Shown: positions 174 to 34,037 of the stretch, piece after piece
Layout: each line of letters begins with the position of its first letter
Position numbering within the stretch: position 1 is the first letter of the stretch
Virus record (IMG/VR): IMGVR_UViG_3300009702_000057
Location: 1 to 34,564 of that record
From: a virus
DNA length: 34,564 nucleotides
Direction: 5' to 3' (one strand)
Position numbers and translations under genes: made by a program
Notes under the pieces: generated by a model
The model's input: only the letters and a program-made list of their open reading frames with translations
Database searches by the model: none
What the model was told of the DNA's origin: nothing

Positions 174-208
174 GGGCCGGGGCCGGCCGGCCATTTGCGA
201 GAGTCCAC
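174..208. repeat. Left outermost arm of the inverted repeat system
   Basis: A GGCCGG-rich block (174-192) is followed by TTTGCGAGAGTCCAC (194-208). The reverse complement of the latter matches GTGAACACTCGCAAA at 671-685 in 13 of 15 positions, and a GGCCGG-rich block also follows the right copy at 695-710. The two arms therefore form an imperfect inverted repeat about 480 bases apart, concentric with the inner arrays. Confidence 0.6.
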
Positions 209-243
209 TTGGTTCGCCACGTGGCACCTCGGGCCACCTGGCG

Positions 244-301
244 CCACTACCAGACCACTAGCATACCACTACCAGACCACTACCAGACCACTAGCATACC
301 A
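244..301 (-). repeat. Left outer array: five 11-bp iteron-like units
   Basis: On the plus strand the 11-bp units CCACTACCAGA, CCACTAGCATA, CCACTACCAGA, CCACTACCAGA and CCACTAGCATA run without spacing from 244 to 298. Read on the minus strand and re-phased (301 down to 247) they become TGGTATGCTAG/TGGTCTGGTAG, the same family as the units of the right outer array at 608-662. The 11-bp period is close to one helical turn, so a bound protein would sit on one face of the DNA. Confidence 0.85.
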
Positions 302-337
302 GTGTTTCGCTGACCCCGCCATTTTCGCATTTTCGCC

Positions 338-410
338 TCTCGCAAACCTAGTAAACCTAGTAAATTCTAGTAAACTCTCGCAAACTCTCGCAAACTCTAG
401 TAAACCTAGG
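338..410 (-). repeat. Left inner array of 9-10 bp units
   Basis: Seven tandem units of the form TCT(A/C)G(T/C)AAAC run from 338 to 405 (units start at 338, 348, 357, 366, 376, 386 and 396), with a trailing CTAGG. Two unit types alternate, TCTCGCAAAC and (T)CTAGTAAAC. In reverse complement the units read GAGTTTACTA or GAGTTTGCGA, which resemble the CAGTTCACTA units of the right inner array. Confidence 0.8.
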
Positions 411-425
411 TGTTTTCAGGAACAA

Positions 426-480
426 GATATATTCTATATATATTATTTTTTTTTTTTTTTTTTTTTTAGAATAATAATAG
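426..480. other. AT-rich core with a 22-T run, possible DNA unwinding element
   Basis: This stretch is almost purely A/T in an otherwise GC-rich region: alternating TATATATA, then 22 consecutive T (446-467), then AGAATAATAATAG. Its centre (about 455) coincides with the midpoint of the flanking inverted repeat arrays (454.5 for the outer pair, 449 for the inner pair). An easily melted core flanked by iterons suits an origin. The exact T count may be affected by sequencing error. Confidence 0.6.
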
Positions 481-560
481 AGTACATCTAGAGTACGCCA
501 GGATACACCAGGCTACACCTCAGTTCACTAGGTTTCGTCTCAGTTCACTAGGTTTCACCT
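481..560 (+). repeat. Right inner array of phased 10-bp units
   Basis: Eight consecutive decamers (481, 491, 501, 511, 521, 531, 541 and 551) share a loose GGNTNCACCT/CAGTTCACTA pattern. The 16-bp block beginning CAGTTCACTAGGTTTC occurs at 521 and again at 541. The units match the reverse complement of the left inner array (GAGTTTACTA against CAGTTCACTA, 8 of 10), so the two inner arrays are inverted relative to each other. Confidence 0.7.
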
Positions 561-607
561 AGGGCGACGCCAGGACGATGCCCTCAGAAGGACACACAGG
601 GAAACAT

Positions 608-662
608 TGGTCTACTAGTGGTCTACTAGTGGTTCACTAATGGTCTGCTAGTGGTCTGTTCG
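608..662 (+). repeat. Right outer array: five 11-bp iteron-like units
   Basis: Five 11-bp units run without spacing: TGGTCTACTAG (608), TGGTCTACTAG (619), TGGTTCACTAA (630), TGGTCTGCTAG (641) and TGGTCTGTTCG (652, most degenerate). The unit count and period equal those of the left outer array, in opposite orientation. Confidence 0.85.
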
Positions 663-670
663 CGCACGAG

Positions 671-710
671 GTGAACACTCGCAAACCAGATGAACCGGCC
701 GGGCCGGCCG
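671..710. repeat. Right outermost arm of the inverted repeat system
   Basis: GTGAACACTCGCAAA (671-685) followed by CCGGCCGGGCCGGCCG (695-710) mirrors the block at 174-208, with 13 of 15 matches in the first element and the same GGCCGG-rich flank. Confidence 0.6.
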
Positions 711-791: not shown

Positions 792-819
792 TTGACATGC
801 CCCCGCCGCCTGCTATACT
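792..819 (+). promoter_or_regulatory. Sigma70-type early promoter
   Basis: A perfect -35 box TTGACA (792-797) is separated by 16 bp from the -10 box TATACT (814-819), which is preceded by TGC (extended -10). It lies about 50 bases before the first gene and is the only strong promoter I see for the whole plus-strand early operon. It implies use of host RNA polymerase. Confidence 0.8.
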
Positions 820-871: not shown

Positions 872-1249
872 ATGTCTACCATCCTCAGTGTCCAGATAGA
901 CTTGTCGCCGCGCCAAGCCCTCATTGCTTGGAGCGCCATGAAAGAGTTTCTGGCAGATAACGGCCCCAACTGTCGCGGTATCACAAACGGTCTTACCACC
1001 CCTGAGGACGCCACACCGCCACGCCAGTTGCCTACCAGCGCCTACGGCTGGATTATGATCAGGCAGAATATAGCAGCCGTAGGCTACTGTGAGCGCAACG
1101 GCTGGTATCTCTATCTTAATGTAGATGCCAGCCTACGGCCCCGGCACGACAACGCTATCCGCGAGATACTACACCGCCTAGGTGGCGTAGCCTGGATCGA
1201 CCAAGCCAAGATTCGCCTTCCAGTAGAGGAGCGCCCATTCTATGCCTAG
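872..1249 (+). CDS. Hypothetical early protein, 125 aa
   Basis: This is the first gene of the plus-strand operon, read directly from the promoter at 792-819. The ATG at 872 follows a GAAAGG ribosome binding site at about 859-864. I do not recognise the family. The product is a mixed alpha/beta-looking soluble protein with no membrane segment, and the C-terminal half (residues about 55-110) looks the most compact. It ends in TAG with an in-frame TAA three codons later, and its last 8 bases overlap the next gene, indicating translational coupling. First genes of phage early operons often act on the host, but nothing in the sequence shows that here. Confidence 0.75.
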   Translation: MSTILSVQIDLSPRQALIAWSAMKEFLADNGPNCRGITNGLTTPEDATPPRQLPTSAYGWIMIRQNIAAVGYCERNGWYLYLNVDASLRPRHDNAIREILHRLGGVAWIDQAKIRLPVEERPFYA

Positions 1250-1991
1250 CAACACTAACACCCCTAAGATCGACGCGCTATATCGGCGGATAGCCGCACT
1301 GCGCCAGCTTACCGAAGAGAACGGCGCAACCGTTGCCGAGGCTCTACTAGCGGCCGAGCGTATCGCGGACATGCTGGCACGCTATGACCTGGATATGTCC
1401 CAGGTCGATCTACGCGCCGGCGCCGGCACCGCCGAGCCCTACGCCACGCGCGAGTATGACCTAGGCGCTCGCCGCAAGCCCTCCATCATTGGCGCCATCA
1501 ATGCCATCGCCGCCTACACTGGCACCCGGGCTTGGTACAGCGCCGGCTATGGTGAGACTTACCGCGTCTACTACTTCGGCCAGCCCGCCCACACGATGTT
1601 TGCGGAGTACCTGCTATCTACCCTCCAGGACGCCATCCGCCGCGAGTGGCAGGATTTCCGGCTCTTCGAGCCAGCCGCGGGCCGCGCCGCCCGCTACGAT
1701 TTCGAGCTAGCAATGGTTCGTACCGTAGCCAAGCGCCTGCGCGACCTAGTCGCCGAGCGCCGCGCGCATGATGCCACTGGGCACGGCCTAATCCTACAGG
1801 ACAAGCTACAGACCGAGTTTAACAAGCTTGGCCTACGGCTACACGTTGCCCACAAAACGAGTCGTGGTATCTACAACCGCGAAGCTGGCGCGGCGGGCCG
1901 AGACGCTGGCGACCGCTTCACAGTCGGAAGGCCGGTGACCAAGCAAGGCTCGGGACTTCGTGCCTTGTCCTACAAGAACCGTGACGTGTAG
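1242..1991 (+). CDS. DUF2786-like protein, 249 aa
   Basis: Residues about 8-60 resemble the DUF2786 domain: a short Leu/Ala-rich helix pair with the pattern A-ER-I-A-MLARYDLDMSQVD, close to the family's typical ending on a helix followed by a Y-G/D-L-D segment. The rest (residues about 75-250) is a longer basic, helix-rich region with several Arg-Ala stretches that I cannot assign. DUF2786 proteins occur in phages and bacteria and have no established role. The start at 1242 overlaps the previous gene by 8 bases. The gene ends in TAG at 1989-1991; the frame stays open from there into the next gene (2037), but that gene has its own ribosome binding site, so a separate protein is more likely than a fusion. 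Confidence 0.75.
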   Translation: MPSNTNTPKIDALYRRIAALRQLTEENGATVAEALLAAERIADMLARYDLDMSQVDLRAGAGTAEPYATREYDLGARRKPSIIGAINAIAAYTGTRAWYSAGYGETYRVYYFGQPAHTMFAEYLLSTLQDAIRREWQDFRLFEPAAGRAARYDFELAMVRTVAKRLRDLVAERRAHDATGHGLILQDKLQTEFNKLGLRLHVAHKTSRGIYNREAGAAGRDAGDRFTVGRPVTKQGSGLRALSYKNRDV

Positions 1992-2036
1992 GCGCCGGCG
2001 CCGGTGCCAACGCCACCACTTAGAAAGGTACCAACC

Positions 2037-2432
2037 ATGACTATCTCCGCTCAGACAATCCACGAGATGTATGACGTAAGCCTGCACGGCATCGTCACTT
2101 CCCCTGGCAAGTTTGAAGGTGAACCCTGGTGGGTCGCCAGCATGTGGTACGAGCTTTCCCGCTGGGAAGATGACCGTATCTACGCCGAAGCCAACGGAAC
2201 AGTCTTCACGGTCTGTAAGATAGACAGCGAGCTACTCGCCGCCTACCCTGGTATCCAAGCTTGGCAAGGCTTGCCCCCACGGCCAGCCCGCCCGCCCGCC
2301 GACGAGCCCACCTATATAGTACTGTGGGAAGACAACCAAGGTTTCGTAACCGCCGTGGAGCTTACCACCGAGCAACTCGACAAGCTCCGCAACAAGTGCA
2401 AGTGCTCCGCACGCCCAAGCCTATCTCTCTGA
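2037..2432 (+). CDS. Hypothetical protein, 131 aa, paralog of the gene at 2759
   Basis: The start at ATG 2037 is chosen over the in-frame ATG at 2004 because AGAAAGG at 2022-2028 sits at the right distance. The family is not recognised. Residues 10-18 (EMYDVSLHG) and a C-terminal VLWEDNQGFV motif recur in the gene at 2759 as EHYNVSLEG and VLYEDNNGFV, so the two are probably diverged duplicates. A Pro/Arg-rich linker lies at about residues 80-92. Two stable hairpins follow the stop codon (2445-2487). Confidence 0.7.
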   Translation: MTISAQTIHEMYDVSLHGIVTSPGKFEGEPWWVASMWYELSRWEDDRIYAEANGTVFTVCKIDSELLAAYPGIQAWQGLPPRPARPPADEPTYIVLWEDNQGFVTAVELTTEQLDKLRNKCKCSARPSLSL

Positions 2433-2444
2433 CCTTCACCCGAG

Positions 2445-2487
2445 GGCGCCAGCTAGGCGCCTTCCAGTGAGGGCCGCGAGGCGGCCC
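2445..2487 (+). other. Two intergenic hairpins
   Basis: GGCGCC-AGCTA-GGCGCC (2445-2461) and GGGCCGC-GAG-GCGGCCC (2471-2487, perfect 7-bp stem with a 3-base loop) sit between two genes. No T tract follows, so this is not a classical intrinsic terminator. It could be an RNA stability or processing element. Confidence 0.45.
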
Positions 2488-2507
2488 CGAGCAAGGGACA
2501 TAGAGCA

Positions 2508-2714
2508 ATGATCTACACCATGCAACATCCCAACGATGCCAACGAGAAGATCATACTTGGCTTGCCGCAGGAGCTTTTAGGGATTTTAGAATATCATCGC
2601 AAGTATCTAATCTGGACTGACCGATGCGGTCACTTCATGCTATGCAAGATCGTTCCGGCACCTTCCTATATCGAGACCAATAAAGAGGAACTAATCACGG
2701 CAAGCGTTCCTTGA
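2508..2714 (+). CDS. Hypothetical protein, 68 aa
   Basis: A small acidic-to-neutral protein of unknown family. The upstream site AAGGGA (2494-2499) is a modest ribosome binding site for ATG 2508. Its C-terminus, EELITASVP, is nearly the same as EEFITAGVPD at the end of the gene at 2759, and FMLCKI resembles FTVCKI in the gene at 2037. The three neighbouring genes therefore look like a small diverged family. Confidence 0.65.
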   Translation: MIYTMQHPNDANEKIILGLPQELLGILEYHRKYLIWTDRCGHFMLCKIVPAPSYIETNKEELITASVP

Positions 2715-2758
2715 CGAGCTAGGGAGAGAGAGAACCAACTTAGAAAGGAACTCATGAC

Positions 2759-2992
2759 ATGGACAAATTCCGTGCAGAAGTCGAAGAACATTACAATGTC
2801 AGTCTAGAAGGCCAAGCCATTGCCATAATCAAGTCTTCACTAGATCTTTTCACAGTGGCTCCAGAACTAAGAAGCCTCCTATCAAGAGACGAAGCTTCAG
2901 CACTCGTTCTCTACGAAGATAACAACGGCTTTGTCAACTCCGACATTTTAGGTAATATAGAAGAGTTCATCACTGCAGGCGTTCCCGACTAA
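2759..2992 (+). CDS. Hypothetical protein, 77 aa, paralog of the gene at 2037
   Basis: ATG 2759 is preceded by AGAAAGGA. Another ATG at 2754 lies in a different frame that stops quickly, so 2759 is the start. The acidic protein carries EHYNVSLEG near the N-terminus and VLYEDNNGFV near residues 50-60, both shared with the gene at 2037, and its last residues match those of the gene at 2508. Function unknown. Confidence 0.7.
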   Translation: MDKFRAEVEEHYNVSLEGQAIAIIKSSLDLFTVAPELRSLLSRDEASALVLYEDNNGFVNSDILGNIEEFITAGVPD

Positions 2993-3019
2993 CCGGAGAG
3001 AAGGAAGGGAGACAAAGTG

Positions 3020-3727
3020 ATGTCCTACCAAATCACCCCTGCCGATATCCAGGCCGCTGCCCGTGCAGGGGCCTGCGGCGTAGCCCTAGACCATCTCAGA
3101 ACGGGCAGTTGGACAATCGACGAGCTATGCAACAAGCATCCTGCTTGGGCACTCTGGGCAATAGCTAACATGCCCGGCGCAGCAGAGATCATCGGAACGG
3201 AGCGCATCGTTGCCTGCACCACAGTAGTGCCTCTTGAAGGTATAATCTGTGCCCGGGATTATCTGACAGCAGAACAGCTAGATGCGTGTGCCGCGAAGGC
3301 GCCTGGCACAGCATTATATCTTATCGCGTCTAGACTAACAAAAGCCCGGCTAGACGCATGTGCTGCCGCAGCGCCGACGTCTGCTTTACTCTACGCTAGA
3401 AAATACCTAACACCCGCCAGGGAAGCCTGGTGCCACGAGCAGCTCCACCCCCAGCAGAAGGAAGCTCCTCTCATGAACATCAACACAATAGAGGACTTCC
3501 GCCGGGCACTCGCCTCCGGCCCGTCGTTCTTTCCTGGTGGCTACGCCAAAGTGTTCTTCTTCCACGACGGAGCCCCTGTTTGCTATCACTGCGCCAAAGC
3601 TGAACAGAGCTTGATCGAGGACGCGATAAAGGACCAAACCGGCGACTGGCAGGTGATCGCTTGCGAAAGCGCCGAACTGCACGAGACAGCTCCTGTTTGC
3701 AGTGAGTGTGAACAGGAAATCCGTTAA
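3020..3727 (+). CDS. Helical-repeat protein fused to a C-terminal zinc-finger-like phage module, 235 aa
   Basis: The start is ATG 3020 (GTG 3017 is in frame immediately before), after GGAAGGGAG. Residues about 10-145 are built of helical repeats of roughly 22 residues with a recurrent LT-x2-x-LDACAA-x-AP pattern (for example LTAEQLDACAAKAPGTAL followed by LTKARLDACAAAAPTSAL). From residue 152 the protein changes to a compact module with CYHC and, near the end, CSEC, a likely four-cysteine metal site. Proteins resembling this second module occur alone in other phages as I recall. An internal ATG at 3473 has its own AGAAGGAAG site, so the second module may also be made separately (84 aa). Function unknown. 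Confidence 0.7.
   Translation: MSYQITPADIQAAARAGACGVALDHLRTGSWTIDELCNKHPAWALWAIANMPGAAEIIGTERIVACTTVVPLEGIICARDYLTAEQLDACAAKAPGTALYLIASRLTKARLDACAAAAPTSALLYARKYLTPAREAWCHEQLHPQQKEAPLMNINTIEDFRRALASGPSFFPGGYAKVFFFHDGAPVCYHCAKAEQSLIEDAIKDQTGDWQVIACESAELHETAPVCSECEQEIR
3456..3475 (+). promoter_or_regulatory. Internal ribosome binding site and start inside the preceding gene
   Basis: AGAAGGAAG (3456-3464) lies 8 bases before an in-frame ATG at 3473. The start matches the boundary between the helical-repeat part and the Cys-rich part, so a separate 84-aa protein ending at 3727 is plausible. Confidence 0.5.
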
Positions 3728-3743
3728 GAAAGGAGCCCACGCA

Positions 3744-3935
3744 ATGCCTAGACCTATCCTGCGACCCCACACCAGCCCTAGGCAACTTTTCAACAGCTCC
3801 CGCTCGCTAGAGCGCCACTACCAAATAGGAACCCAGGCGTACCAAACCAAGATAGAGGCAGATCTACAGGAGACAGAGGATTACCTTCAATATCTGTACT
3901 CCCACAATCTATCCATCGAGCGGGCGCCCGACTAA
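3744..3935 (+). CDS. Hypothetical protein, 63 aa
   Basis: ATG 3744 follows a strong AAAGGAG at 3729-3735. The upstream in-frame start at 3702 would overlap the previous gene and has no such site. The protein has a basic, Pro/Arg-containing N-terminus followed by an acidic helix (residues about 25-55). Family unknown. Confidence 0.6.
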   Translation: MPRPILRPHTSPRQLFNSSRSLERHYQIGTQAYQTKIEADLQETEDYLQYLYSHNLSIERAPD

Positions 3936-3986
3936 CAGCAGCCCCCCACCACCCCCACCATCCACCTGCTAACAAAGGAGCGAAAG

Positions 3987-4274
3987 ATGCGCGAGGGAAC
4001 CTATAGCACTAAGATCGAGATTTGTGTAGAAGGAGAATGCAACGACCATGACATACTCGTATCTTACGAATACGAGCCAGCCGAGCGGGAGCTATCGCCC
4101 TCGCTAGCGTCTAGCGGCCGACCTGGCCATGGGCACAGCATTTCCATCTACCTTGTAGAGTTAGAGCGGGGCAACGGCAAGTACGTTAGCCTACCGCTCT
4201 GTCTCATCCCGAAGAACGCCATGCTGACCTGGATCGACGCCATCGAGGCCGAGCTCCTGTCCGAGACCCCGTAG
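3987..4274 (+). CDS. Hypothetical protein, 95 aa
   Basis: A strong AAAGGAG lies at 3974-3980 before ATG 3987. The N-terminal half looks like beta strands (a KIEICVEGEC segment then a SYEYEPAERE segment) and the C-terminal half ends in an acidic helix. No family is recognised. It ends in TAG. The 51-base gap before it is C-rich with no clear signal. Confidence 0.65.
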   Translation: MREGTYSTKIEICVEGECNDHDILVSYEYEPAERELSPSLASSGRPGHGHSISIYLVELERGNGKYVSLPLCLIPKNAMLTWIDAIEAELLSETP

Positions 4275-4293
4275 ACAACCAAAGGAGCTAGCT

Positions 4294-4590
4294 ATGTCCA
4301 TCTCTTTCTCGAGCTTCATGGCAGAGCGACAGCGCAAGATACTGTCCGGCCCCCCGCCGGACCTTCAGCGCCGCGCTCATTGGCTTGCCACCAACTACCC
4401 GGAAGTAATCGAACACCAGTCGCGGCTATATGCCGAGGCCAACGCCGCGGACCCGTTCGCCTACCGGCGAGCACGTACCTATTTCCACGTCGGCATCGCC
4501 ACTCCCGAGGACTACCAAGCCGACAAGTACACAGAGGATGTCGAGGGACGGCTCGTGACATCCTTTCGTAACCAGAAAGTTCCATGCTAA
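4294..4590 (+). CDS. Hypothetical protein, 98 aa
   Basis: ATG 4294 follows AAAGGAG (4280-4286). Soluble, Arg- and Tyr-rich, mainly helical by appearance. Family not recognised. An imperfect hairpin (4592-4610) sits directly after the stop. Confidence 0.6.
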   Translation: MSISFSSFMAERQRKILSGPPPDLQRRAHWLATNYPEVIEHQSRLYAEANAADPFAYRRARTYFHVGIATPEDYQADKYTEDVEGRLVTSFRNQKVPC

Positions 4591-4591
4591 C

Positions 4592-4610
4592 TTGCCGTCG
4601 CCTTCGGCAA
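4592..4610 (+). other. Small intergenic hairpin
   Basis: TTGCCG (4592-4597) pairs with CGGCAA (4605-4610) over a 7-base loop, directly after the stop of the gene at 4294. No T tract follows. Confidence 0.35.
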
Positions 4611-4632
4611 CCTTAGACAAGGAGACACCAAA

Positions 4633-5079
4633 ATGTCAACGACCTGCGATACTTCCCTCGACAGACTAGTCCAGAGTCTGCGCGCCGCCGCCGACTTCCT
4701 CCAACAGCACCCCGGCCTTGGCGTACGGAAGTCTGAGCTAGACATCAGCTTCTACAGCTTCGGTGAGCCGGAAACCCTCGACCTTGCCAAGCGCATCGCC
4801 AAAGAGCTTGGCACGTTTCGGAAAGAAGAAAGCGACACCCTTCTAGTGCTCACCAAGAATCTCGGCGTGGTCAAGCTGCGGTTTGTCTTCGGCCGCGAGA
4901 ATATTTGTCTCCGGGAACAGGTCGGAACGCGCACGATACCAGCCGCGCCTGCGCGACCAGCGAGCAAGGTGCCCGTGTATAAGTATCACTGCCCGCCGCT
5001 TCTCACTCCTGCGACACCTTCCACCACGGGACCATCGGTCCCGGTGCAGCCGGCGGAGCCCAGCGGTGAAAGTAGCTAA
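4633..5079 (+). CDS. Hypothetical phage protein, 148 aa
   Basis: ATG 4633 follows AAGGAG (4619-4624). Residues about 10-85 look like a helix-strand fold, followed by a segment around LREQVGTRTIPAAP that resembles a C-terminal pattern in hypothetical proteins of other phages (Cys/Arg, then V-G-T, then a Pro/Ala stretch, then a short aromatic-Cys motif, here KYHCPPLL). I know of no function for that group. The Pro/Ser-rich tail is probably disordered. The last 14 bases overlap the next gene. Confidence 0.65.
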   Translation: MSTTCDTSLDRLVQSLRAAADFLQQHPGLGVRKSELDISFYSFGEPETLDLAKRIAKELGTFRKEESDTLLVLTKNLGVVKLRFVFGRENICLREQVGTRTIPAAPARPASKVPVYKYHCPPLLTPATPSTTGPSVPVQPAEPSGESS

Positions 5080-5422
5080 CTTCAACCCTATCCTGATCGA
5101 GCTACTGGTCAAGGCCGGGAATGGCGAAGTGATAGAGCATCAACTGCCCGCTTTGAAGGATGTCTATCATATTCGCCACCGGCTTTACTCTCTCCGCAAA
5201 GCAATGCGCGCTGAGAACCATCCGCTGGCGGATGCGGCGCAACAGACTACCGTCAAGGTTATAAAATCGCCGCCCACTCTCCGCTTGGAGCCAGCAGACT
5301 TCAGCTTTGCTAGCTTACTAGAAAGCCAAGGCTTTGCCAGCCCGCCCTCGGCGGCGAGCCCTGCGAGCGGAGACGCCACCCTGGCAGACATCATAGGAGA
5401 CACCACAGATGACACAGACTGA
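5066..5422 (+). CDS. Hypothetical protein, 118 aa (GTG start)
   Basis: I place the start at GTG 5066, just after GGCGGAG (5052-5058). This gives a 14-base overlap with the gene before; starts further upstream would lie deep inside that gene. The N-terminal 50 residues are a basic, Leu-rich helical domain that could contact nucleic acid; the C-terminal half is Ser/Ala/Pro-rich and acidic at its end. Family unknown. It overlaps the next gene by 14 bases. Confidence 0.6.
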   Translation: MKVANFNPILIELLVKAGNGEVIEHQLPALKDVYHIRHRLYSLRKAMRAENHPLADAAQQTTVKVIKSPPTLRLEPADFSFASLLESQGFASPPSAASPASGDATLADIIGDTTDDTD

Positions 5423-5720
5423 CACGGCTTCGTCGCCGGCGACTGAGCTAGAGCAAATCCTAGCTATGACTCCCGAGGACCGGCTTGCCGAGATCGAGAA
5501 GCTGGCTAGCTTCGGTCTAGAAATCGAGGACGACGCGCTACGTCGCTTGATCCGGCTAATCCGCACAGAGCGAGAGACACGAGAGGCGCCAAAGGCTAAA
5601 CGCGCTACCAGCAAGAAAACTACCCGCCGCCAAGCAGCCGCTCAGGCGGAAGCCGATTTCGATGCTTTCCTAGCGGCTACCACAGGCGGGGCCGGCGGCC
5701 CCACCACAGAGGAAGACTAA
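5409..5720 (+). CDS. Hypothetical acidic/basic helical protein, 103 aa
   Basis: AGGAGA lies before ATG 5409. An acidic helical segment (residues about 12-55) is followed by a Lys/Arg/Thr-rich stretch (about 58-78) and an Ala/Gly tail. The pattern resembles a small DNA-binding or recombination accessory protein, but no family is recognised. It lies 2 bases before the nuclease gene, so they are probably co-translated. Confidence 0.6.
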   Translation: MTQTDTASSPATELEQILAMTPEDRLAEIEKLASFGLEIEDDALRRLIRLIRTERETREAPKAKRATSKKTTRRQAAAQAEADFDAFLAATTGGAGGPTTEED

Positions 5721-5722
5721 TT

Positions 5723-6682
5723 ATGTCTATACAGCCCTCAGATGATACAGGGCCGAAGGCCGGGCCGAAGGCCACCTGGCCGGCTTCCCTAGGAAGCCAC
5801 GGAGCCGCCGCCACTGATTGTGCGCAGAAGTTCTTCTTCTCCCACTGCGAGCACCTAGAAACCCCCGGCGTGTCCATAGACCTACACTGTGGCAGCGTCG
5901 TATCTACTGCGCTGGAAGCAGCACGCCGAGAGCCACACCACGACCAGAAACAGTTAGCAGCAGCACGCCAAGCTATCGCTAGCTGGGATAATTACCGCAC
6001 TTTCTCCAACGAGACCAAAGATCTCACAAACACTGTCTCTGCTATCCTCGCCTACCTAGATTACTACTCCCCGGACCCTGTGCAGGTATATGAGAGCCGC
6101 ACTGGACCCGCGGTAGAATACACATTCGCCATCCCCCTTCCCGTCCTGTCGCCTGTCACGGGCGAACCTATACTATACGTCGGCCGGATGGACTGGCTAG
6201 GCTTCGACACGCGCACCCGAGAACTCTGTGTAGTGGACGAGAAGACCACTGGCCGGTCTTTCAGCCCCAAGTGGCTTAATTCATTTCGGATGCGCGGGCA
6301 GTTGTTAGGCTACCTATGGGCTGTCCGCCAATATGGGCTCCCAGTGACTTGTGTGCTGATCCGAGGTATCTGTATCCAGAAGACAAAGATCAGCTTCCAG
6401 GAAGTCCGCCTACACTTCCCTGAGTAGCAGATTGATGACTGGTTTCAGAACCTATGCCGGAAGCTCGAACGCATGAAGATGTTCTGGAAGACCGGCCAGT
6501 GGCCTCGATCCTACGGTGACCTATGCACCACCTACGGCGGTTGCCCCTATCTCGATCTATGCACCATCTCCGACCCGACCCGCTACTATCCTCTCTACAC
6601 GCGGAAGCCGCTTAATCATCTAGATGCTAGGGCAGCAGCCGCACCAGCCACAAGGGGAGCGCCAGCCAATGCCACTGCTTAG
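5723..6682 (+). CDS. Cas4/RecB-like PD-(D/E)XK nuclease interrupted by an in-frame amber codon
   Basis: The reading frame from ATG 5723 stops at TAG 6425-6427 (234 aa) but continues open in the same frame to 6682, giving 319 residues if the TAG is read through. The first part has the RecB-type nuclease motifs: RMDWLG, the DEK of VVDEKTTG, and QLLGY (QxxxY). An N-terminal Cys33 (TDCAQKFFF) and three cysteines after the TAG (268, 274 and 280, C-x5-C-x5-C) match the Fe-S cluster layout of Cas4/AddB-type exonucleases. The TAG therefore separates the catalytic core from three of four cluster ligands. Possible explanations are readthrough, a true nonsense mutation, or a sequence error. The neighbouring Sak4-like and SSB-like genes suggest a recombination exonuclease. 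Confidence 0.8.
6425..6427 (+). other. In-frame TAG codon inside the nuclease gene
   Basis: The context is CCT GAG TAG CAG ATT. A C directly after TAG is generally a weaker termination context, and the protein downstream (W240, then the Cys motif) clearly belongs to the same family. Confidence 0.8.
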
Positions 6683-6752
6683 CCTTCCTTTCTTCCCCAT
6701 CCTGATGTTCTACTACCTATATCTATACTGGAAGCAAAACCGTGACAAATGA
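6669..6752 (+). CDS. 27-aa single-span membrane peptide
   Basis: ATG 6669 lies after AAGGGGAG (6652-6659) within the end of the nuclease frame and runs to TGA 6750-6752. The peptide has a short N-terminus, a continuous hydrophobic and aromatic stretch (residues about 3-21, including LMFYYLYLYW) and a charged tail KQNRDK, like a tiny inner-membrane protein. It overlaps the nuclease 3' end by 14 bases and the next gene by 11. Small phage membrane peptides can affect host membranes or lysis timing; no role can be shown here. Confidence 0.5.
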   Translation: MPLLSLPFFPILMFYYLYLYWKQNRDK

Positions 6753-7011
6753 TCCCCCGGGCTCGCGCCCGCAGCCGCCTGCCGCGCGGGCCACGCCGTC
6801 CGCCCGCGAGATAGAACAGATGCTTCATGAGTTTCTGCTTTTCCTCGATGGTGTCCGTAGAGATATAACTGCTATCACCACTATCCTATTCAATGCCTAT
6901 AATACATCGAACTCTCTGATGGGTGGTTTAGGTTCCTATGACCGCGCCGACTTGCACGTGCGACTAGAGGAACTGCTGCGTAGAGTGCAGAGATACAATG
7001 GCCTCAAATAG
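6742..7011 (+). CDS. Small helical protein, 89 aa, first of a tandem paralog pair
   Basis: GTG 6742 follows TGGAAG. A Pro/Ala-rich N-terminus (residues 1-20) is followed by a helical domain with EIEQMLHEFLLFLDGVRRD and a C-terminal LLRRVQRYN. The next gene has the same length (89 aa), the same order of segments and the matching EVERVLREFLACF and LLWRVQRYN, so these are tandem duplicates. The C-terminal RYN codons (AGATACAAT) contain the start of the next gene, giving a 14-base overlap. Function unknown. Confidence 0.7.
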   Translation: MTNDPPGSRPQPPAARATPSAREIEQMLHEFLLFLDGVRRDITAITTILFNAYNTSNSLMGGLGSYDRADLHVRLEELLRRVQRYNGLK

Positions 7012-7267
7012 CACGCCGACGCCGACGCCGCCGAGCGGCAGCGGCCCACCGTCTTTCCAAGAGGTAGAAAGGGTACTACGGGAGTTCCTTGCCTGCTTCT
7101 ATCAAATGGAGAAAGCCATAGACCAAGCTGCAAATGCTATGTGCACTCTCGACAACTACCCTGCGGCGTGGGATGACGTCCTAAACTACAGAGAGATGTC
7201 GGAAGTGGAAGAAACTGTGAAAGACCTACTATGGAGGGTACAGAGATACAATGACACACACCGATAA
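6998..7267 (+). CDS. Small helical protein, 89 aa, second of a tandem paralog pair
   Basis: ATG 6998 lies inside the 3' end of its paralog. The product has a Pro/Thr/Ser-rich N-terminus and then the helical domain shared with the previous gene. It ends with the same AGATACAATG arrangement, which again contains the start of the next gene (7251, 17-base overlap). The duplication therefore copied the overlap arrangement as well as the coding part. The ribosome binding site is weak (translation probably coupled). Function unknown. Confidence 0.7.
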   Translation: MASNSTPTPTPPSGSGPPSFQEVERVLREFLACFYQMEKAIDQAANAMCTLDNYPAAWDDVLNYREMSEVEETVKDLLWRVQRYNDTHR

Positions 7268-7457
7268 GTCTCCCAGACAGTGGTTCTACATCGACACCGG
7301 CTATGCTTGCGGCGGCGTGTCCGTCTATGCCGGCCGTGTCATCCACGCCGCACCCATCTTTCGTTGGATGGAAGGCCAGTGCTGGAATAGAGTACGGCAG
7401 TGGCACAAGATACTGGAAATCCAGGAGATACTCCACCTCCCCCCCAGATCCCTCTAA
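7251..7457 (+). CDS. Small phage protein, 68 aa, of the 'DTGYACGG' type
   Basis: GGAGGG lies at about 7233-7238 before ATG 7251. The core, FYIDTGYACGGVSVYAGRV followed by APIFRWMEGQ, resembles a small protein found in many phage genomes, usually near replication genes, whose function is not established as far as I know. The aromatic, strand-rich pattern suggests a compact beta fold. Confidence 0.65.
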   Translation: MTHTDKSPRQWFYIDTGYACGGVSVYAGRVIHAAPIFRWMEGQCWNRVRQWHKILEIQEILHLPPRSL

Positions 7458-7477
7458 GCAGCCAAGGGAGCCTCACG

Positions 7478-7750
7478 ATGGCTAAGGAATACTTCGTAAT
7501 CCCTTTGAAAGCTGCGGACAGCGGCGCCGAGGACGATCTCTTACAGCTCTACCACCAACTAGTAGCTCTCAGAAAACATGTAGAGAAGATAATGCAGAGA
7601 CAGACTTTCAGACAAAACATCTTACTTAATCACCTGGTCACTATAAGTCTTGTCTTACTCCACGATCTCATATTCCTCGCTCATCAACTCAGTCAGGATC
7701 ACGCCAAGCTCACAGCGCCCACGCCACAGACAGACAGTGAAAGGAGCTAG
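7478..7750 (+). CDS. Hypothetical protein with an amphipathic or membrane helix, 90 aa
   Basis: ATG 7478 follows a strong AAGGGAG (7464-7470); in-frame starts further upstream lie inside the previous gene. Residues about 22-40 form a charged helix and about 46-68 a long Leu/Ile/His-rich helix (LVTISLVLLHDLIFL) that could be membrane-associated or a coiled-coil interface. Family unknown. It ends 4 bases before the Sak4-like gene. Confidence 0.6.
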   Translation: MAKEYFVIPLKAADSGAEDDLLQLYHQLVALRKHVEKIMQRQTFRQNILLNHLVTISLVLLHDLIFLAHQLSQDHAKLTAPTPQTDSERS

Positions 7751-7754
7751 CCAG

Positions 7755-8600
7755 ATGCTCAAAGGAACCAAAACTCTCCTAATCGGCCCGCCGGGGTCGG
7801 GCAAAACTACCAGCCTTGTAACCTTCTGCAAGGCCGGCCTCGATCTTTTCTGCCTAATCACCGACCCTGGCGGCGAGGAATCCCTAATCGACGCAGCCCG
7901 GCTATACGACATCCCAATGTCTAAGCTCCACTGGCACACTATCTCTATCGGGGTGTCGGATTGGGACGCGCTAGATCGGCTCGCACAGAATCTCTCCACC
8001 CATTCTTACGAAGGTCTGAAGAAGCTGAAAAGCCCCAATCTCGCCCATCCCGATACCTACACCCATATGCGGCTCCTGCTACAGCAGCTTAAGAACTTCG
8101 AGGATGAGAACACCGGTAAGGAGTTCGGCCCTGTCGGCGCTTTCGGACCCGACAGGGCACTAGTCTTCGACAGCCTGTCATCTCTGAACACACTAATCTA
8201 TCAGTTGCATATCGGCGAGCGCCCATCTTCCCACGAAGGTGAATACGGCGTCGTTATGGACTACGAGCGCCGCTTCATCGAAAGCATCACAGGCAGTCTA
8301 GCGTGTTTCGTCGTGCTCACCGCTCACATGGAACGCATCTATGTCAGCGAGGCGCAGGCTCATCTCAAACTCCCCCTATTCCTTGGCAAGAAACTGGCGC
8401 CCGTCCTACCCTACCTATTCTCTGACGTAATAGTAGCAGTGAAGAAAGGAGGCAAGTTCAGTTGGTCCACAGCGGAAGCTGACATGGACCTAAAGGGAAG
8501 AGCCCTCCCAATCCAGTCTGGGCTCACTCCGTCCTTCGAGCAGGTAGTAGATACCTGGCGTACCCGTAACCAAGCTGTAGGAGTACCAACGAATGACTGA
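7755..8600 (+). CDS. Sak4-like RecA-fold ATPase, 281 aa
   Basis: ATG 7755 follows AAAGGAG. The Walker A motif GPPGSGKT is at residues 11-18 and a Walker B-like strand ALVFDS ends at Asp139. The spacing and the SSL-N-L segment after Walker B fit the phage AAA_24/Sak4 group of RecA-like recombinases, which assist single-strand annealing. In many phages such a protein sits beside an exonuclease and an SSB, as here (nuclease upstream, SSB-like gene directly downstream with an 8-base overlap). It probably acts in recombination-dependent replication or repair of phage DNA in the cytoplasm. Family assignment is by motif only. Confidence 0.8.
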   Translation: MLKGTKTLLIGPPGSGKTTSLVTFCKAGLDLFCLITDPGGEESLIDAARLYDIPMSKLHWHTISIGVSDWDALDRLAQNLSTHSYEGLKKLKSPNLAHPDTYTHMRLLLQQLKNFEDENTGKEFGPVGAFGPDRALVFDSLSSLNTLIYQLHIGERPSSHEGEYGVVMDYERRFIESITGSLACFVVLTAHMERIYVSEAQAHLKLPLFLGKKLAPVLPYLFSDVIVAVKKGGKFSWSTAEADMDLKGRALPIQSGLTPSFEQVVDTWRTRNQAVGVPTND

Positions 8601-9048
8601 CACCTTCAATCCCGACACCTTCCTCGATACTGATGTGAAGGCTGACTTCTCCGATAAGTATGTCCCGATCCCTCCTGGTCGTTACATCGCCACGATCGAC
8701 GAGGCTCCTCCGATTGTCAGGATGACTAAGGATGGGCCAGTGGTGAACATCAAGTTCGTCATCGACGACCCGGAGCTTACCGAGCGCCTGAACATTCGCA
8801 ACCCTTCCGCCGTGATGTCTATCTGGCCCGATCTGGAGTCTGACGGCAGTCTGTCGGTGGGCGTGAATAAGAATGTGAAGCTCGGTCGGCTGCGTGCTGC
8901 CTTGGGGCAGAACGATGCGAAGCGTGCCTGGAACTGGAACCATCTTCGCGGCGCCGGTCCTGTCCTGGTCGATGTGTACTCGCAGACCTCGGACAAGGAT
9001 CCTGGCATGGTGTATAATAAGGTCAACCGCGCCTATCCTGTCTCCTAA
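8593..9048 (+). CDS. SSB-like protein (DUF669 type), 151 aa
   Basis: ATG 8593 overlaps the Sak4-like gene by 8 bases, after GGAG. The pattern PIPPGRYIATIDEA, followed by a strand pair VVNIKFVIDD and later VLVDVYSQTSDKD, resembles the DUF669 group of phage proteins thought to bind single-stranded DNA and often encoded next to Sak4 or RecT-type genes. Codon use is distinctive: Lys is always AAG and there are no CTA, ATA or AGA codons, whereas neighbours use them often. That suggests high expression. A strong hairpin with a weak T tract follows at 9127-9145. Confidence 0.65.
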   Translation: MTDTFNPDTFLDTDVKADFSDKYVPIPPGRYIATIDEAPPIVRMTKDGPVVNIKFVIDDPELTERLNIRNPSAVMSIWPDLESDGSLSVGVNKNVKLGRLRAALGQNDAKRAWNWNHLRGAGPVLVDVYSQTSDKDPGMVYNKVNRAYPVS

Positions 9049-9126
9049 CCACCACGCCAGCATCACGTCAGCATCGCATAGTCTGTAAGCTGTAAGCTCT
9101 CAAGCTCTCAGGCTCTACTTGGGGTG

Positions 9127-9157
9127 GGGTGGCCAATGGCCACCCTACTCTGTCTTT
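9127..9157 (+). terminator. Probable intrinsic terminator or mRNA-stabilising hairpin
   Basis: GGGTGGCC-AAT-GGCCACCC (9127-9145) is a perfect 8-bp stem with a 3-base loop, followed by a T/C-rich tract (TACTCTGTCTTT). It stands in the 169-base gap after the SSB-like gene; the rest of that gap has only short AAGCTCTCA-type repeats (about 9086-9115). Confidence 0.5.
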
Positions 9158-9217
9158 ACTAGCCTCCGCCCTAGCGGCGACGCCGCCCAGGCGGGGTGAT
9201 GAAAGGAAGCAAAGCAT

Positions 9218-9490
9218 ATGGAACCACAGCAGAGTACGAGTAAAGCTGCCTCGCCGCGGGCGGTACGTCGCCGAAGCCACCGTCGGTGGCACTATAATCC
9301 TAAAACCCGGATACAAACCTACGCCTCACCCTCCGGCCACGTGTTCACTATAAAAAGAGAGAACGGTACTATGACTGGCCTTTACTACACTCTCTGGCTG
9401 GCCGGGAGGTGCATTGACCACGGGACAGGCGTGTCTCCCTTAAAGTGGAAGGCAGAGCACTACGAGACTCTCATAAAGCAGTCACAATGA
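9218..9490 (+). CDS. Hypothetical basic protein, 90 aa
   Basis: ATG 9218 follows AAAGGAAG (9202-9209). An Arg/Ser/His-rich N-terminus (residues about 8-30) is followed by a domain with VFTIKRENGTMTGLYYTLWLAG. Family unknown. It ends in an ATGA overlap with the glycosylase gene, which supports this frame over the alternatives in the region. It may be a small nucleic-acid-binding protein, by charge only. Confidence 0.55.
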   Translation: MEPQQSTSKAASPRAVRRRSHRRWHYNPKTRIQTYASPSGHVFTIKRENGTMTGLYYTLWLAGRCIDHGTGVSPLKWKAEHYETLIKQSQ

Positions 9491-10107
9491 GAGAAACCTT
9501 CTTCGGCACACGCGGGAACCGCAACGCCAGCATAGCTATCATCGGAGAGGCTTGGGGAGCGCAGGAAGCCGAGCAACAGCAGCCCTTTGTCGGGCCGAGC
9601 GGCAATCTACTAGATCAGCTTCTGGGGCAAGCCGGCATCGACACCACAGACTGTTTTTTCACCAATCTGGCTGCCACGCAGCCCGCTGGCAATAAGATGT
9701 CCACCCTTTTCAACACAACGAGTCCTATCTTCCGAGGTCTCCAGCCTAATGAGTTCCTAGTCAACGAGTTGCAGCGTCTAGAGACGCAGCTAGCCTTGGT
9801 AAAGCCCCGCGTGATAATTGGCTTGGGTAACTATCCACTTTGGTATTTCCAGCCCTCGGCCGTGAGTATTACAAAGAAAGATGGAGTGCTGGTGCCCTCG
9901 GGCATTGGGAAGTGGCGTGGCAGCCAGCTACAAACCAACACCGGCTTGCCCTTCCTGCCCACCTACCATCCTGCCGCCACATTCCGCAACCCAGCTTTCC
10001 GCCCCCTTATCCTGCATGACTTCCGCTCCCGCGTCCCACAGATGCTAGACCGCGATGCCAAGCAGGCGCCCATCTACCAGTATCTCATCAATCCCAACCT
10101 ACCGTAG
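9487..10107 (+). CDS. Uracil-DNA glycosylase superfamily protein, 206 aa
   Basis: The start ATG 9487 overlaps the previous stop (ATGA). Motif 1 reads GEAWGAQE (residues 20-27), followed by QPFVGPSGNLLDQLL (32-46), TN at 59-60, and the second active-site motif in LPTYHPAAT (His161-Pro162). This is the layout of family 4-like UDGs, but Trp replaces the usual Pro in motif 1 and the four Fe-S cysteines of classical family 4 are absent, so the subfamily is uncertain. UDGs remove uracil from DNA. The stop TAG (10105-10107) is followed at once, in the same frame, by the DNA polymerase start, so the two may be coupled or partly fused. N-terminal UDG-like domains on phage polymerases are known, as I recall, in SPO1-like phages. 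Confidence 0.75.
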   Translation: MRETFFGTRGNRNASIAIIGEAWGAQEAEQQQPFVGPSGNLLDQLLGQAGIDTTDCFFTNLAATQPAGNKMSTLFNTTSPIFRGLQPNEFLVNELQRLETQLALVKPRVIIGLGNYPLWYFQPSAVSITKKDGVLVPSGIGKWRGSQLQTNTGLPFLPTYHPAATFRNPAFRPLILHDFRSRVPQMLDRDAKQAPIYQYLINPNLP

Positions 10108-11889
10108 GTGTTGCAGTTCCTCAGTAAGCTGCCAGCGGAGATATGTGTAGACCTCGAAACTTCCAAAACCTACCACATCACTGCCTGCGGCATAGGCGCG
10201 CCGGACTGCCCCACCATCCTCTGCATCCCATTCACCAGAAGTGGGCAGTATTCTTACTGGTCGGAAGACGAAGAGTTCCAAATAGTCCGAGCCCTTCGCG
10301 ACACCTTGTCTATGCGCAGCGTGATAGGCCAGAATTTCCTATACGACGCTCAGGTGCTGCATCGGTGGTGGGGTATCCATCCCCGTATATCCTGGGACAC
10401 CATGGTTGCACATCATCTATGTTGGCCCGGCGAAGGCGGCCAGGGTATTGAAAGTAAAAGCCTAGGCTTTCTATCCTCCCTCTACCGCCGCCACCACGTC
10501 TTCTGGAAAGACGAGCGTCACACCTCCCACCAGCAAACTTTCTGGCAATACAACTGTAAGGATGTGGAAGCCACGATGGAGATCGCGGAGGCGCAGCATA
10601 GCCTAATCAGCAAGCTAGACCTACAGCCTCAGTCGGAGTTCCAGATGTGGCAAGTCCGGCTGGCTCTCCAGATGCTGCTCCGTGGTATCCGTGTCTCCGC
10701 CGCCGCGAAAGCACGAGCCACCGCCGAGCTAGAGAGCAAGATCAAGCAGACGCAGGCTTGGCTGAGTAGCATCATACCACAGTCAGAGGTCAGGACAAAA
10801 AGCAAGGCCGCGTGGTATGACAGTCCTAAGCAAACCAAAGACATCTTCACTTCCTTGCTACAGCGTCGCGGCCGGCTGCGATCTCTTACAGGCTCGGGGA
10901 AAGATGTGCTGCCAAAGGTAGCCGCCGCCCTACCCTGGGCGCACCGCCTGATCGAGCAGCTTCTGTTCTATCGTAGTCTCCACGTCTACTACTCTACATT
11001 CGCCACGGCGCGGGTTGGCCGCGACGGGCGCATACACTCCAAATTCAATCCTGCGGGGACGAAAACTTTACGTTGGTCCAGCCGTAAGACCGACTTTGGG
11101 CTAGGTATGAACCTACAGAACATCCCCCGCGCCGACGACACGCGTTTTCCTTCCATCCGTAGCTTCTTCATCCCCGACGACGGCTACTTACTCATCTCCG
11201 CGGATTTGCAGGGCGCCGACGCTCAGGTACTAGCTTGGGATGCCGGGGACACCGATCTGATGCAGGATTTTGCGGAGGGCAAAGCTATCCACGTGGAGAA
11301 CTGCCGTAAGATGTTCCCTCGTGAGACGCGAGGCTTGTCCGACCCGCAGATCAAGGCGCTGCCTCTCTACCACCAGACTAAGCAAGCAATCCACGCCACT
11401 GACTACGGTGTGCAGGCTGAAACGCTGTCGCGGGAGGTCGGCTGGAGCTATGCTTTCGCCTCCCGCTTTATCCAGGAATGGCTTTCTCTCCACCCGGCCA
11501 TCCATCAGTGGCACCGCCGGATACAAAATGATCTTGCTACGCGGGGCTACATCCAAAACCAGCTTGGCTATCGTTGCACCTTCACAGGCTGGAATATTAT
11601 GTCTAAAGCCTTCTCTTGGATCCCCCAGTCTACTGTCGCACTGGTAACTTTCAAAGGCGCGCAGCAACTACTTGCCCACTATCCCTTGTGTCAAATCCTT
11701 CTACAACTCCACGACGAACTCATCTTCCAAATCCCCCTTTCGCTGCGCACTGAACTCCCGCAGATACAGAAGTGTCTACACTTCCCCATCCCTTACCCGC
11801 GCCCGTTGACTATCCCCTGGACTACCCGAGTAAGTGAGAAGTCTTGGGGTGAGATGATACCTGTAGAGGAGTACGACTATGCCAGCTAA
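10108..11889 (+). CDS. Family A DNA polymerase with 3'-5' exonuclease, 593 aa
   Basis: Exonuclease motifs: DLE with Asp15 and Glu17, GQNFLYD ending at Asp80, and YNCKD (Tyr148-Asp152). Polymerase motifs: the RWSS...NLQNIP region (322-340), motif A ISADLQGADAQ (Asp366), motif B K426 to Y433-G434 (KQAIHATDYG), motif C QLHDELIF (His535-Asp536-Glu537). There is no 5' nuclease domain, as is usual for phage enzymes. The start is GTG 10108, followed by TTG. There is no convincing ribosome binding site and no gap after the preceding TAG, so translation probably depends on the upstream gene. This is the replicative polymerase. Confidence 0.9.
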   Translation: MLQFLSKLPAEICVDLETSKTYHITACGIGAPDCPTILCIPFTRSGQYSYWSEDEEFQIVRALRDTLSMRSVIGQNFLYDAQVLHRWWGIHPRISWDTMVAHHLCWPGEGGQGIESKSLGFLSSLYRRHHVFWKDERHTSHQQTFWQYNCKDVEATMEIAEAQHSLISKLDLQPQSEFQMWQVRLALQMLLRGIRVSAAAKARATAELESKIKQTQAWLSSIIPQSEVRTKSKAAWYDSPKQTKDIFTSLLQRRGRLRSLTGSGKDVLPKVAAALPWAHRLIEQLLFYRSLHVYYSTFATARVGRDGRIHSKFNPAGTKTLRWSSRKTDFGLGMNLQNIPRADDTRFPSIRSFFIPDDGYLLISADLQGADAQVLAWDAGDTDLMQDFAEGKAIHVENCRKMFPRETRGLSDPQIKALPLYHQTKQAIHATDYGVQAETLSREVGWSYAFASRFIQEWLSLHPAIHQWHRRIQNDLATRGYIQNQLGYRCTFTGWNIMSKAFSWIPQSTVALVTFKGAQQLLAHYPLCQILLQLHDELIFQIPLSLRTELPQIQKCLHFPIPYPRPLTIPWTTRVSEKSWGEMIPVEEYDYAS

Positions 11890-12058
11890 CTCCCCCCCAC
11901 GTGCTTACCACCGTCCTAAGTCGGACCGGCGCGGCGAGGAAAGGGTCAGGCAGTGTCTCCGCTGCCACAAGACTTTCCTCAGCACCCACAAAGGCAATCG
12001 GCTCTGCCTCCCCTGTCGCCGACAGGATGATGCACGGCGTAGCAGCATGGACGCTTGA
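11879..12058 (+). CDS. Zinc-ribbon protein, 59 aa
   Basis: GAGGAG (11866-11871) precedes ATG 11879, overlapping the polymerase 3' end by 11 bases. Cysteines at 26, 29, 43 and 46 form two CxxC knuckles (QCLRCHKTF and RLCLPCRR) in a strongly basic protein, typical of small phage zinc-ribbon proteins that probably bind nucleic acid. It ends in TGA at 12056-12058, 2 bases before the next start. Confidence 0.75.
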   Translation: MPANSPPRAYHRPKSDRRGEERVRQCLRCHKTFLSTHKGNRLCLPCRRQDDARRSSMDA

Positions 12059-12060
12059 CA

Positions 12061-12393
12061 ATGATCTACCTTGCCTCCCCTTTCTCCGACGCAGAGCCAG
12101 ACCTGAAGCCTTACCGCTATAAAGCGGCGCTGCTCTACGTCTCTCAGGAAACACTGCGCGGCCGCGTCATATTCTCCCCGATAGTTTACTACAAGCTGGT
12201 CGAAGACCTATGGCCGGAGCCGCTGCCCTCCAAGGAATGGCTTAGGATCGACATGTCTATCCTCAAGCGATGCGACGTGATGGAAGTCTTATGCTTGCCC
12301 GGTTGGGAGAATAGCAAAGGAATCAAAAAAGAACTCCAGTACGCGGAGATGCTTCAAATTCCTGTCCATCAAGTAGCTGCCCCCATTTTCTAG
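12061..12393 (+). CDS. DUF1937 family protein, 110 aa
   Basis: I start at ATG 12061 (a TTG at 12055 is in frame). The N-terminus MIYLASPFSD, then IFSPIVYYK, then RCDVMEVLCLPGWENSKGI and a C-terminal helix-strand match the DUF1937 pattern, a group related in fold to nucleoside 2-deoxyribosyltransferases. Its activity in phages is unknown; nucleotide metabolism or signalling is possible. The gene ends in TAG. The 55-base gap after it contains no evident signal. Confidence 0.75.
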   Translation: MIYLASPFSDAEPDLKPYRYKAALLYVSQETLRGRVIFSPIVYYKLVEDLWPEPLPSKEWLRIDMSILKRCDVMEVLCLPGWENSKGIKKELQYAEMLQIPVHQVAAPIF

Positions 12394-12448
12394 TCCGAGC
12401 CCTGTCGTGCCGGAGGGTAGATTTTAGCAGGATTGGCTTAAAGGCTAC

Positions 12449-13604: not shown

Positions 13605-14071
13605 CGGCAGGCAAAGCCAGCTGGTCGCCAGCCGAGGACAAAGAGTTGTGCAGGTTGGTGTCAGAGGGTCTTAACTTCGCAGAAATCGCGGGCATCATCA
13701 ACCGTACCCGGCGGCAAATAGAATACAGGTGGAAGCGATTGGAGGAAGGCTTACAGAGCGGTGTGGAGGAAATAAAACTAACCGCTCCCGAGTTCATCGA
13801 AACGCTGCTGCTGCCGCGGCCGCCCCACACCATTCTATACTTGGTAGGAAACCTCGCCTTGGCAAGGCAGGCCAAGTCTACGGCAGGGAAGCAGATAGAC
13901 CAACTAGGGGAGCTGGTCTACCACGCCTACCAGCGAGGCATTGGCACGCCCCTGCAGCGGCGGACCAGCTCCCCTGTATCTAAGGAGTACCTATTCCTTG
14001 TCCGAGCTGTGCTGGACCAGCCTCAGTTTGACTTCCTACAGGCCCAAAAGCAGTATCTTGCAAATCAATAA
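13601..14071 (+). CDS. Myb/SANT-like DNA-binding protein, 156 aa
   Basis: ATG 13601 makes an ATGA overlap with the stop of the corrected ATPase frame (TGA 13602-13604). Residues about 7-46 have the SANT/Myb-like pattern W-x2-AED-x-EL-x2-LV-x-EG, then a short helix ending EIAGIINRT, then RRQIEYRWKRL, with Trp9 and Trp41 in the expected places: a helix-turn-helix that probably binds DNA. The C-terminal 100 residues are not recognised. This is the last gene of the early operon and its end overlaps the late operon's last gene on the other strand by 92 bases. It could be a regulator, but its target cannot be seen. Confidence 0.65.
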   Translation: MTAGKASWSPAEDKELCRLVSEGLNFAEIAGIINRTRRQIEYRWKRLEEGLQSGVEEIKLTAPEFIETLLLPRPPHTILYLVGNLALARQAKSTAGKQIDQLGELVYHAYQRGIGTPLQRRTSSPVSKEYLFLVRAVLDQPQFDFLQAQKQYLANQ

Positions 14072-28678: not shown

Positions 28679-28690
28679 CTGATAGCTGAT

Positions 28691-28722
28691 AGCCCGCCAG
28701 CCTGCTAGCCCGCCAGCCTGCT
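28691..28722 (-). repeat. Tandem 16-bp direct repeat after the scaffold gene
   Basis: AGCCCGCCAGCCTGCT occurs twice without spacing (28691-28706 and 28707-28722), next to a doubled AGCTGAT. The repeat touches the scaffold stop codon (CTA on the plus strand at 28721-28723). Confidence 0.7.
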
Positions 28723-33715: not shown

Positions 33716-33737
33716 CTCTCACTCCTCCTTGTGGGCC

Positions 33738-33754: not shown

Positions 33755-33757
33755 TTG

Positions 33758-34036: not shown

Positions 34037-34037
34037 A

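Follow-up and report, generated by a model that had tools for sequence, protein, structure and literature searches.

What is the function of a set of short repeats that face one another across the most AT-rich DNA of a viral genome? The question is raised by virus record IMGVR_UViG_3300009702_000057, the whole 34,564 bp of which we refer to here as the window. Its repeat arrays (190-690) occupy the gap between two diverging blocks of genes, the contig ends being taken as joined: an early/replication block running rightward from ~872 to 14071, which encodes an exonuclease, Sak4, UDG and family A polymerase and a DUF3987 protein, and a structural block running leftward from 34547 to 13980, which encodes the terminase, portal and major head protein. 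We propose that the array is probably the phage's replication origin, a phage-specific and mirror-symmetric iteron origin at which an initiator-helicase would be loaded from both sides. A first-pass annotation had proposed an origin of an unusual type here, and the proposal gains support from the conserved architecture that we find in relatives; the step from architecture to origin is one that we infer.

Two facing arrays enclose the AT maximum of the window

The locus is made up of the following elements, from left to right.

194-217, minus strand: outermost repeat, left (TTTGCGAGAG..., with a core as in the inner left units; CTCTCGCAAA is exact on the minus strand)
247-301, minus strand: outer left iteron array, five 11-bp units TGGTMTGSTAG
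338-410, minus strand: inner left iteron array, 9-10 bp units GTTTACTAG / GTTTGCGAG
422-480, no strand assigned: AT-rich core, candidate DNA unwinding element (DUE), the window's most AT-rich 60 bp
446-467, no strand assigned: T22 run (A22 on the late-gene strand)
481-560, plus strand: inner right iteron array, ~10-bp units (GTTCACTAG, GTTTCACCTAG, TACACCAGG)
608-662, plus strand: outer right iteron array, five 11-bp units TGGTCTRCTAG
662-685, plus strand: outermost repeat, right, an inverted match to 194-217

Re-analysis of the window bears out the coordinates and all of the layers described in the first-pass annotation, with the left arm in minus and the right arm in plus orientation and both tiers inverted, in agreement with the BLAST and inverted-repeat matches. 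The outer arms pair as an inverted repeat of 62 nt (81%, BLAST E 3e-11), the inner left and inner right units are likewise inverted with respect to one another (AAACCTAGTAAAC / GTTCACTAGGTTT, 92%), and the outermost pair (194-217 and 662-685) is 79% complementary over 24 nt. Tandem Repeats Finder reports 244-301 (period 11, score 88) and 344-409 (period 10, score 76) on the left, and 519-556 (period 20, score 76) and 608-657 (period 11, score 72) on the right. Scored against TGGTCTRSTAG, three of the five outer left units (247-301) are exact and two carry one mismatch; on the right (608-662) three of the five slots are exact, 652-662 carries two mismatches and 630-640 (TGGTTCACTAA) carries three. 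The equal unit numbers claimed earlier, five and five, therefore stand as a count, with the right outer array the more degenerate of the two. Judged by their letters, the units of both tiers seem to be versions of a single motif (GGTCTACTAG, GGTTTACTAG, GGTTTGCGAG, GTTCACTAG), so that the whole may perhaps be one long array in two spacings, of 11 and 9-10 bp.

To score the arrangement we used a mirror statistic, which combines same-strand 7-mer repeats within the two halves with inverted repeats across the centre; the statistic, its thresholds and the arm limits are choices of the present analysis. It reaches 106 at the array, against 33 at the next best site in the genome, and the array exceeds chance. 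The T22 run lies, as had been noted, within the AT-rich core, and this core is the AT maximum of the genome: the 60-mer at 422 is 92% AT, the best found elsewhere being 72%. No clusters of DnaA boxes were found, which fits a phage-encoded initiator.

The layout is kept among relatives whilst the repeat letters are replaced

The window DNA has no similarity to named phages, its distant kin by terminase and polymerase being Microcystis phage Mel-JY34, Vibrio phage VS-ABTNL-3 and MW202489. Relatives were gathered via terminase or DUF3987, and the frequencies given here are valid for those groups only; the terminase alignment comprises 80 IMG/VR loci (up to 62% identical), with the terminases of the diverged relatives at 35-62% identity. 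Arrays missing or unordered in these relatives would have spoken against an origin; the opposite was found. Many of the relatives carry the mirrored layout at the corresponding site upstream of the terminase, built in each case from a different repeat: GCAAT in L072, CCTA/TAGG in L091, GCGTCCC in L088, TTTCCCCTA in L048 and TGTACGTA in L085. The shared design has arms in mirror orientation, units spaced by roughly a helical turn and, in most cases, an A/T run of 8-25. The 11-mer pair was also tried as a conserved sequence in its own right, and an exact-pattern search of IMG/VR gave chance or unrelated matches only; it is therefore the layout that is conserved, and not the sequence.

Within the de-replicated set, sites scoring >29 all have an A/T run of 9-22 close to the midpoint, with the exception of L028, where an A10 run sits just beyond the 100-bp search span; background sites usually have central runs of 2-6 at most. 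The high-scoring sites lie in the divergent region, 2.2-4.7 kb upstream of the terminase (8.2 kb in L091). Arrays are visible by eye in the near-threshold scorers L080 (A23), L088 (A10) and L058, and also in VS-ABTNL-3, which scores at background, the statistic being blind to low-complexity units. Approached from the other direction, 31 genomes have A/T runs of at least 8 in the expected region, and in 27 of them such a run ranks among the 1% of positions with the strongest mirror symmetry. A left arm shares on average ~25 7-mer pairs with the inverted right arm of the same phage and 2.3 with the arms of other phages, a match that is seen inverted and is absent in direct orientation (L055 excepted), and the pooled repeat period of 19 arrays peaks at 10 bp (z 10.9), with a second peak at 20.

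The core is equally constant: each of the 23 genomes checked has it within the 0.14% of 50-bp stretches that are richest in AT. The late-gene strand carries its A run in 26 of 31 genomes, the opposite strand in the other five (L048, L043, L078, VS-ABTNL-3 and Desulfofustis phage), and symmetric arms therefore surround a core that is usually polar. The genes flanking the array are generally not conserved, and in several relatives small genes separate it from the terminase; the DUF7168 protein beside the window's array is without relatives among viral contigs.

The same architecture is present in isolated and named phages; GenBank phages include 26 relatives by DUF3987. The top mirror site lies in or beside an intergenic gap in Caulobacter phage Kuura (GGGCAGTNNN repeats, A12), Desulfofustis phage (A17), Pseudomonas aeruginosa phage PaP2 (Fredfastierviridae), Polaromonas phage Tiera and vir526 (assigned to Methanomicrobiales), and overlaps a small annotated open reading frame (ORF) in MW202554; Mel-JY34 shares the architecture too. 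The cores of PaP2, Tiera, MW202554 and vir526 are AT-rich without a run of 8. No such array was seen in the partial record of EBPR podovirus 3. Beside the array of Tiera (L193, ~43925-44072) a ~70-bp segment is tandemly duplicated. No description of a mirror-array architecture was found in the literature, as covered by open-licence papers.

The array travels with the replication module

The genes that matter to this argument lie in the rightward block of the window.

792-819, plus strand: sigma-70-like early promoter TTGACA-16-TATACT with extended -10, 11/12 matches, outside the arrays
5723-6427, plus strand: exonuclease of the replication module
7650-8600, plus strand: Sak4-like ATPase of the replication module
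9445-11889, plus strand: UDG-like domain and family A DNA polymerase (PolA), a single gene in most relatives, split in the window
12449-13604, plus strand: putative DUF3987 replication helicase gene, candidate loader/initiator, with a frame change near 13340-13360

DUF3987 is present in all searched contigs of 39 kb or more, such that the longer contigs of terminase relatives all carry it; for the converse comparison we therefore took as controls Pseudanabaena phage Pam5 and MW202444, which share the terminase type of MW202489. Seven window proteins have a match in MW202489, each of them from the replication module (5723-6427, 6473-6682, 7650-8600, 8593-9048, UDG, PolA and DUF3987), and no virion protein has one; with its circle closed, MW202489 has an array with A9 2.85 kb upstream of an unrelated terminase. 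In vir526, which has only UDG, PolA and DUF3987 in common with the window, the mirror score is 82. Pam5 and MW202444, with terminases 44-45% identical to that of MW202489, have no such site and are both absent from the DUF3987 list. The array thus travels with the replication module (PolA, Sak4, exonuclease, DUF3987) and not with the virion module, and the two swaps together with the two controls favour a function in replication over one in packaging.

MW202489 (L009, 1-40250) is itself a natural chimera, of this group's replication module and an unrelated virion module. The UDG-like domain and family A polymerase at 9445-11889 of the window are two adjacent ORFs (a stop, then GTG), and relatives such as Mel-JY34 carry one longer polymerase gene, of the UDG-PolA fusion family.

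A proposed model for initiation, and the candidate initiator

Building on what is observed, namely the architecture and position of the array, the persistence of this layout while the sequence turns over, and its association with the replication module, we suggest how it might work. A phage DNA-binding protein would first occupy the 9-11 bp units, one per helical turn and on the same face of the DNA, with the polarity of the bound protein opposite in the two arms. The facing nucleoprotein arrays could then put the AT-rich core, A/T run included, under strain and melt it, whereupon the DUF3987 protein, predicted to be MCM-like, would load on the core, possibly as two facing assemblies, to be followed by PolA. 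Episomal persistence has been described for a relative with 98.6% identity to PaP2 (PMC13348215), which makes these phages autonomous replicons, for which a plasmid-like origin is needed in any case.

The DUF3987 protein of a relative was modelled (pLDDT 83, pTM 0.77). Its best solved matches in Foldseek are MCM helicases (E 1e-9, TM 0.4-0.5), and those in a viral structure library are DUF3987 proteins and phage helicases/primases; no sequence match to a solved MCM was found. Residues 333-393 at the modelled C-terminus follow the order helix-helix-helix-beta hairpin, a winged helix by inspection, and the protein is predicted to combine an MCM-like AAA+ fold and, at its C-terminus, a winged helix. 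A helicase role in mobile elements had been predicted earlier for DUF3987 domains (PMC5862659).

In the window the DUF3987 frame shifts near 13340-13360, the conserved C-terminal winged-helix part reading in the +1 frame; the change may be genuine or an artefact of assembly. Next comes a Myb-like DNA-binding frame (13604-14071), and the 540-aa ORF is a chimera of the two frames. We considered the Myb-like domain (Pfam, 12449-14071) as the iteron binder and set it aside, as it belongs to a separate frame joined by the frame change, and relatives are without Myb.

Points against an origin, and alternative explanations

Several observations weigh against the proposal that the array is an origin. 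L092 and L094 have DUF3987, and no array was detected in them, nor an A/T run of 8 in the usual position. The match of the DUF3987 model to the MCM fold is a moderate one at the TM values given above, and no co-variation was found between repeat sequence and the winged-helix region of DUF3987 (Mantel p 0.54). There is no sign flip of GC skew at the array, and the skew of relatives is mixed, with no clear bidirectional pattern in any. Lastly, the virion end maps inside or beside the array in Kuura, and the records of PaP2-like phages suggest the like for them.

As regards skew, the plus strand of the window is C-rich at 4-fold sites in both the early (plus) and the late (minus) genes, at ~-0.3 each; the asymmetry is strong and uniform across the genes, fading to zero only in 33440-34547. 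We therefore rejected GC skew as an origin locator, given that it is uniform in the window and mixed in relatives. A skew change elsewhere would have pointed to another origin; none is indicated, and equally there is no flip at the array, which leaves a symmetric bidirectional origin unsupported and is compatible with a unidirectional one. The polarity of the A run, which is mostly conserved, together with the missing skew flip suggests that one replication direction dominates.

The virion end within the array of Kuura, and those suggested by the records of the PaP2-like group, make packaging, or the formation of terminal repeats, the strongest alternative, albeit one that we consider unlikely. 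Here the arrays would form a packaging/concatemer-processing site and bind the small terminase or a terminal-repeat duplication complex, with the cut made beside the A run; a ring-shaped small terminase could touch DNA about every 10 bp. Kuura has a terminal repeat of 606 bp (PMC9959647), the left boundary of which (43208) is inside the array, 56 bp from the A12 core. The records of PaP2, PaMx33/35/41/43/46, Ph_15 and 119X start a few bases apart inside the array, and the 1-379 segment of PaP2 (0.38 kb) is found again where the TF17 and Neko records end. The window and the contigs of several relatives also start near the array or inside the A run, but such starts can be assembly breaks. Against packaging, MW202489 and vir526, which have replication genes in common with the window but virion/terminase modules unrelated to it, carry the array, and it is missing from the two phages with a related terminase and another replication module; a cut site, moreover, needs less than two facing arrays and the AT maximum of the genome. 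Origin and packaging as functions of a joint site are possible.

Contigs L020, L022, L030, L057, L086, L063 and L051 start within ~100 bp of the A run. Contig starts of this kind in the group can be physical ends or assembly breaks at low-complexity DNA.

We think it very unlikely that the array is a transcription hub, with operators for a phage regulator of divergent early and late promoters. Its place between divergent gene blocks and the helical phasing of its sites would suit a regulator, and there is a promoter-like match on the minus strand at 393-364. The strong early promoter (792-819), however, is ~100 bp outside the arrays, and in several relatives the small genes mentioned above intervene between array and terminase; we also know of no operator design with mirror polarity and a universal AT-maximum core bearing an A/T run.

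Least probable of all, and very unlikely, is a centromere-like partition site (compare R1 parC) serving the episomal state reported for a PaP2-like phage, as known ParR sites are direct repeats and not mirrored, no ParM-, ParR-, ParA- or TubZ-like protein was found among the early proteins of the window scanned against Pfam, and the AT-maximum core is left unexplained.

Comparison with known systems

Plasmid R1 parC has ten 11-bp direct repeats, as two blocks of five around a promoter/short spacer, with parM/parR adjacent. The window likewise has ten 11-bp repeats in two blocks of five, but here the blocks face each other with an A run between them, and the Pfam scan of the early proteins revealed no par genes. 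With a T7-type terminal repeat or pac site the array shares the presence of virion ends at or inside it in Kuura and, as their records suggest, in the PaP2-like phages, but in MW202489 and vir526 it follows the replication module and not the terminase.

Three attributes of an iteron origin are present in the window: multiple short direct repeats within the arms, helical phasing and an adjacent AT-rich element. In iteron plasmids and lambda the iterons lie in one block, lambda having four 19-bp palindromic sites inside the O gene. The window differs in that its core is enclosed by two facing arrays, which are intergenic and far from the candidate initiator gene. The likeness is that lambda ori and the iteron plasmids (P1, RK2, R6K) have repeated, helically phased initiator sites beside an AT-rich opening region (PMC5043065), which the phased repeats and AT-rich core of the window resemble.

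In archaeal origins, elements of opposite polarity flank an AT-rich unwinding element and are thought to load two MCM assemblies symmetrically (PMC6742236). In geometry the window closely resembles this arrangement of origin recognition boxes (ORB/miniORB) around a DUE, with its opposite-polarity sites on either side of an AT-rich element, and it may also encode an MCM-like helicase, as predicted from the fold of a relative's DUF3987 protein. It differs from the archaeal ORB in that the phage's host is probably bacterial, the units are shorter (9-11 bp), far more numerous and helically phased, the repeat sequence varies by phage, and the core has an A run of mostly conserved polarity. The inverted elements of the ORB-DUE-ORB plan are thus present, whilst no match to Orc1/Cdc6 was found among the window proteins scanned in Pfam/PHROGs; we would therefore say that the array 'works like', and not that it 'is', an archaeal-type origin.

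Other features of the window

Small tandem repeats occur outside the array at 28686-28730 and 34049-34100 (CTGCTAGCCCGCCAGC; 27-bp unit). Rfam and tRNA scans were negative.

Implications

We tentatively suggest, as a step beyond the origin itself, that the array might represent an undescribed class of phage origin, with mirror-symmetric and fast-evolving iterons, a polar A run and an MCM-like DUF3987 protein loaded from both sides, following an archaea-like logic. Such a class, if true, would be common to Fredfastierviridae-like podophages, a Methanomicrobiales-assigned virus and chimeric phages with unrelated virions. For the DUF3987/PolA podophages, including the PaP2/119X-like and freshwater phages, no origin or initiation mechanism was found in the open-licence literature, and the array supplies a precise and conserved origin candidate, testable in ordinary laboratory phages; its apparent overlap with virion ends in two groups makes a link between initiation and genome end testable as well. 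If the proposal is correct, the array would be a helicase-loading site that keeps its geometry though its sequence turns over completely, and would provide a tailed-phage parallel to the symmetric loading origin of archaea.
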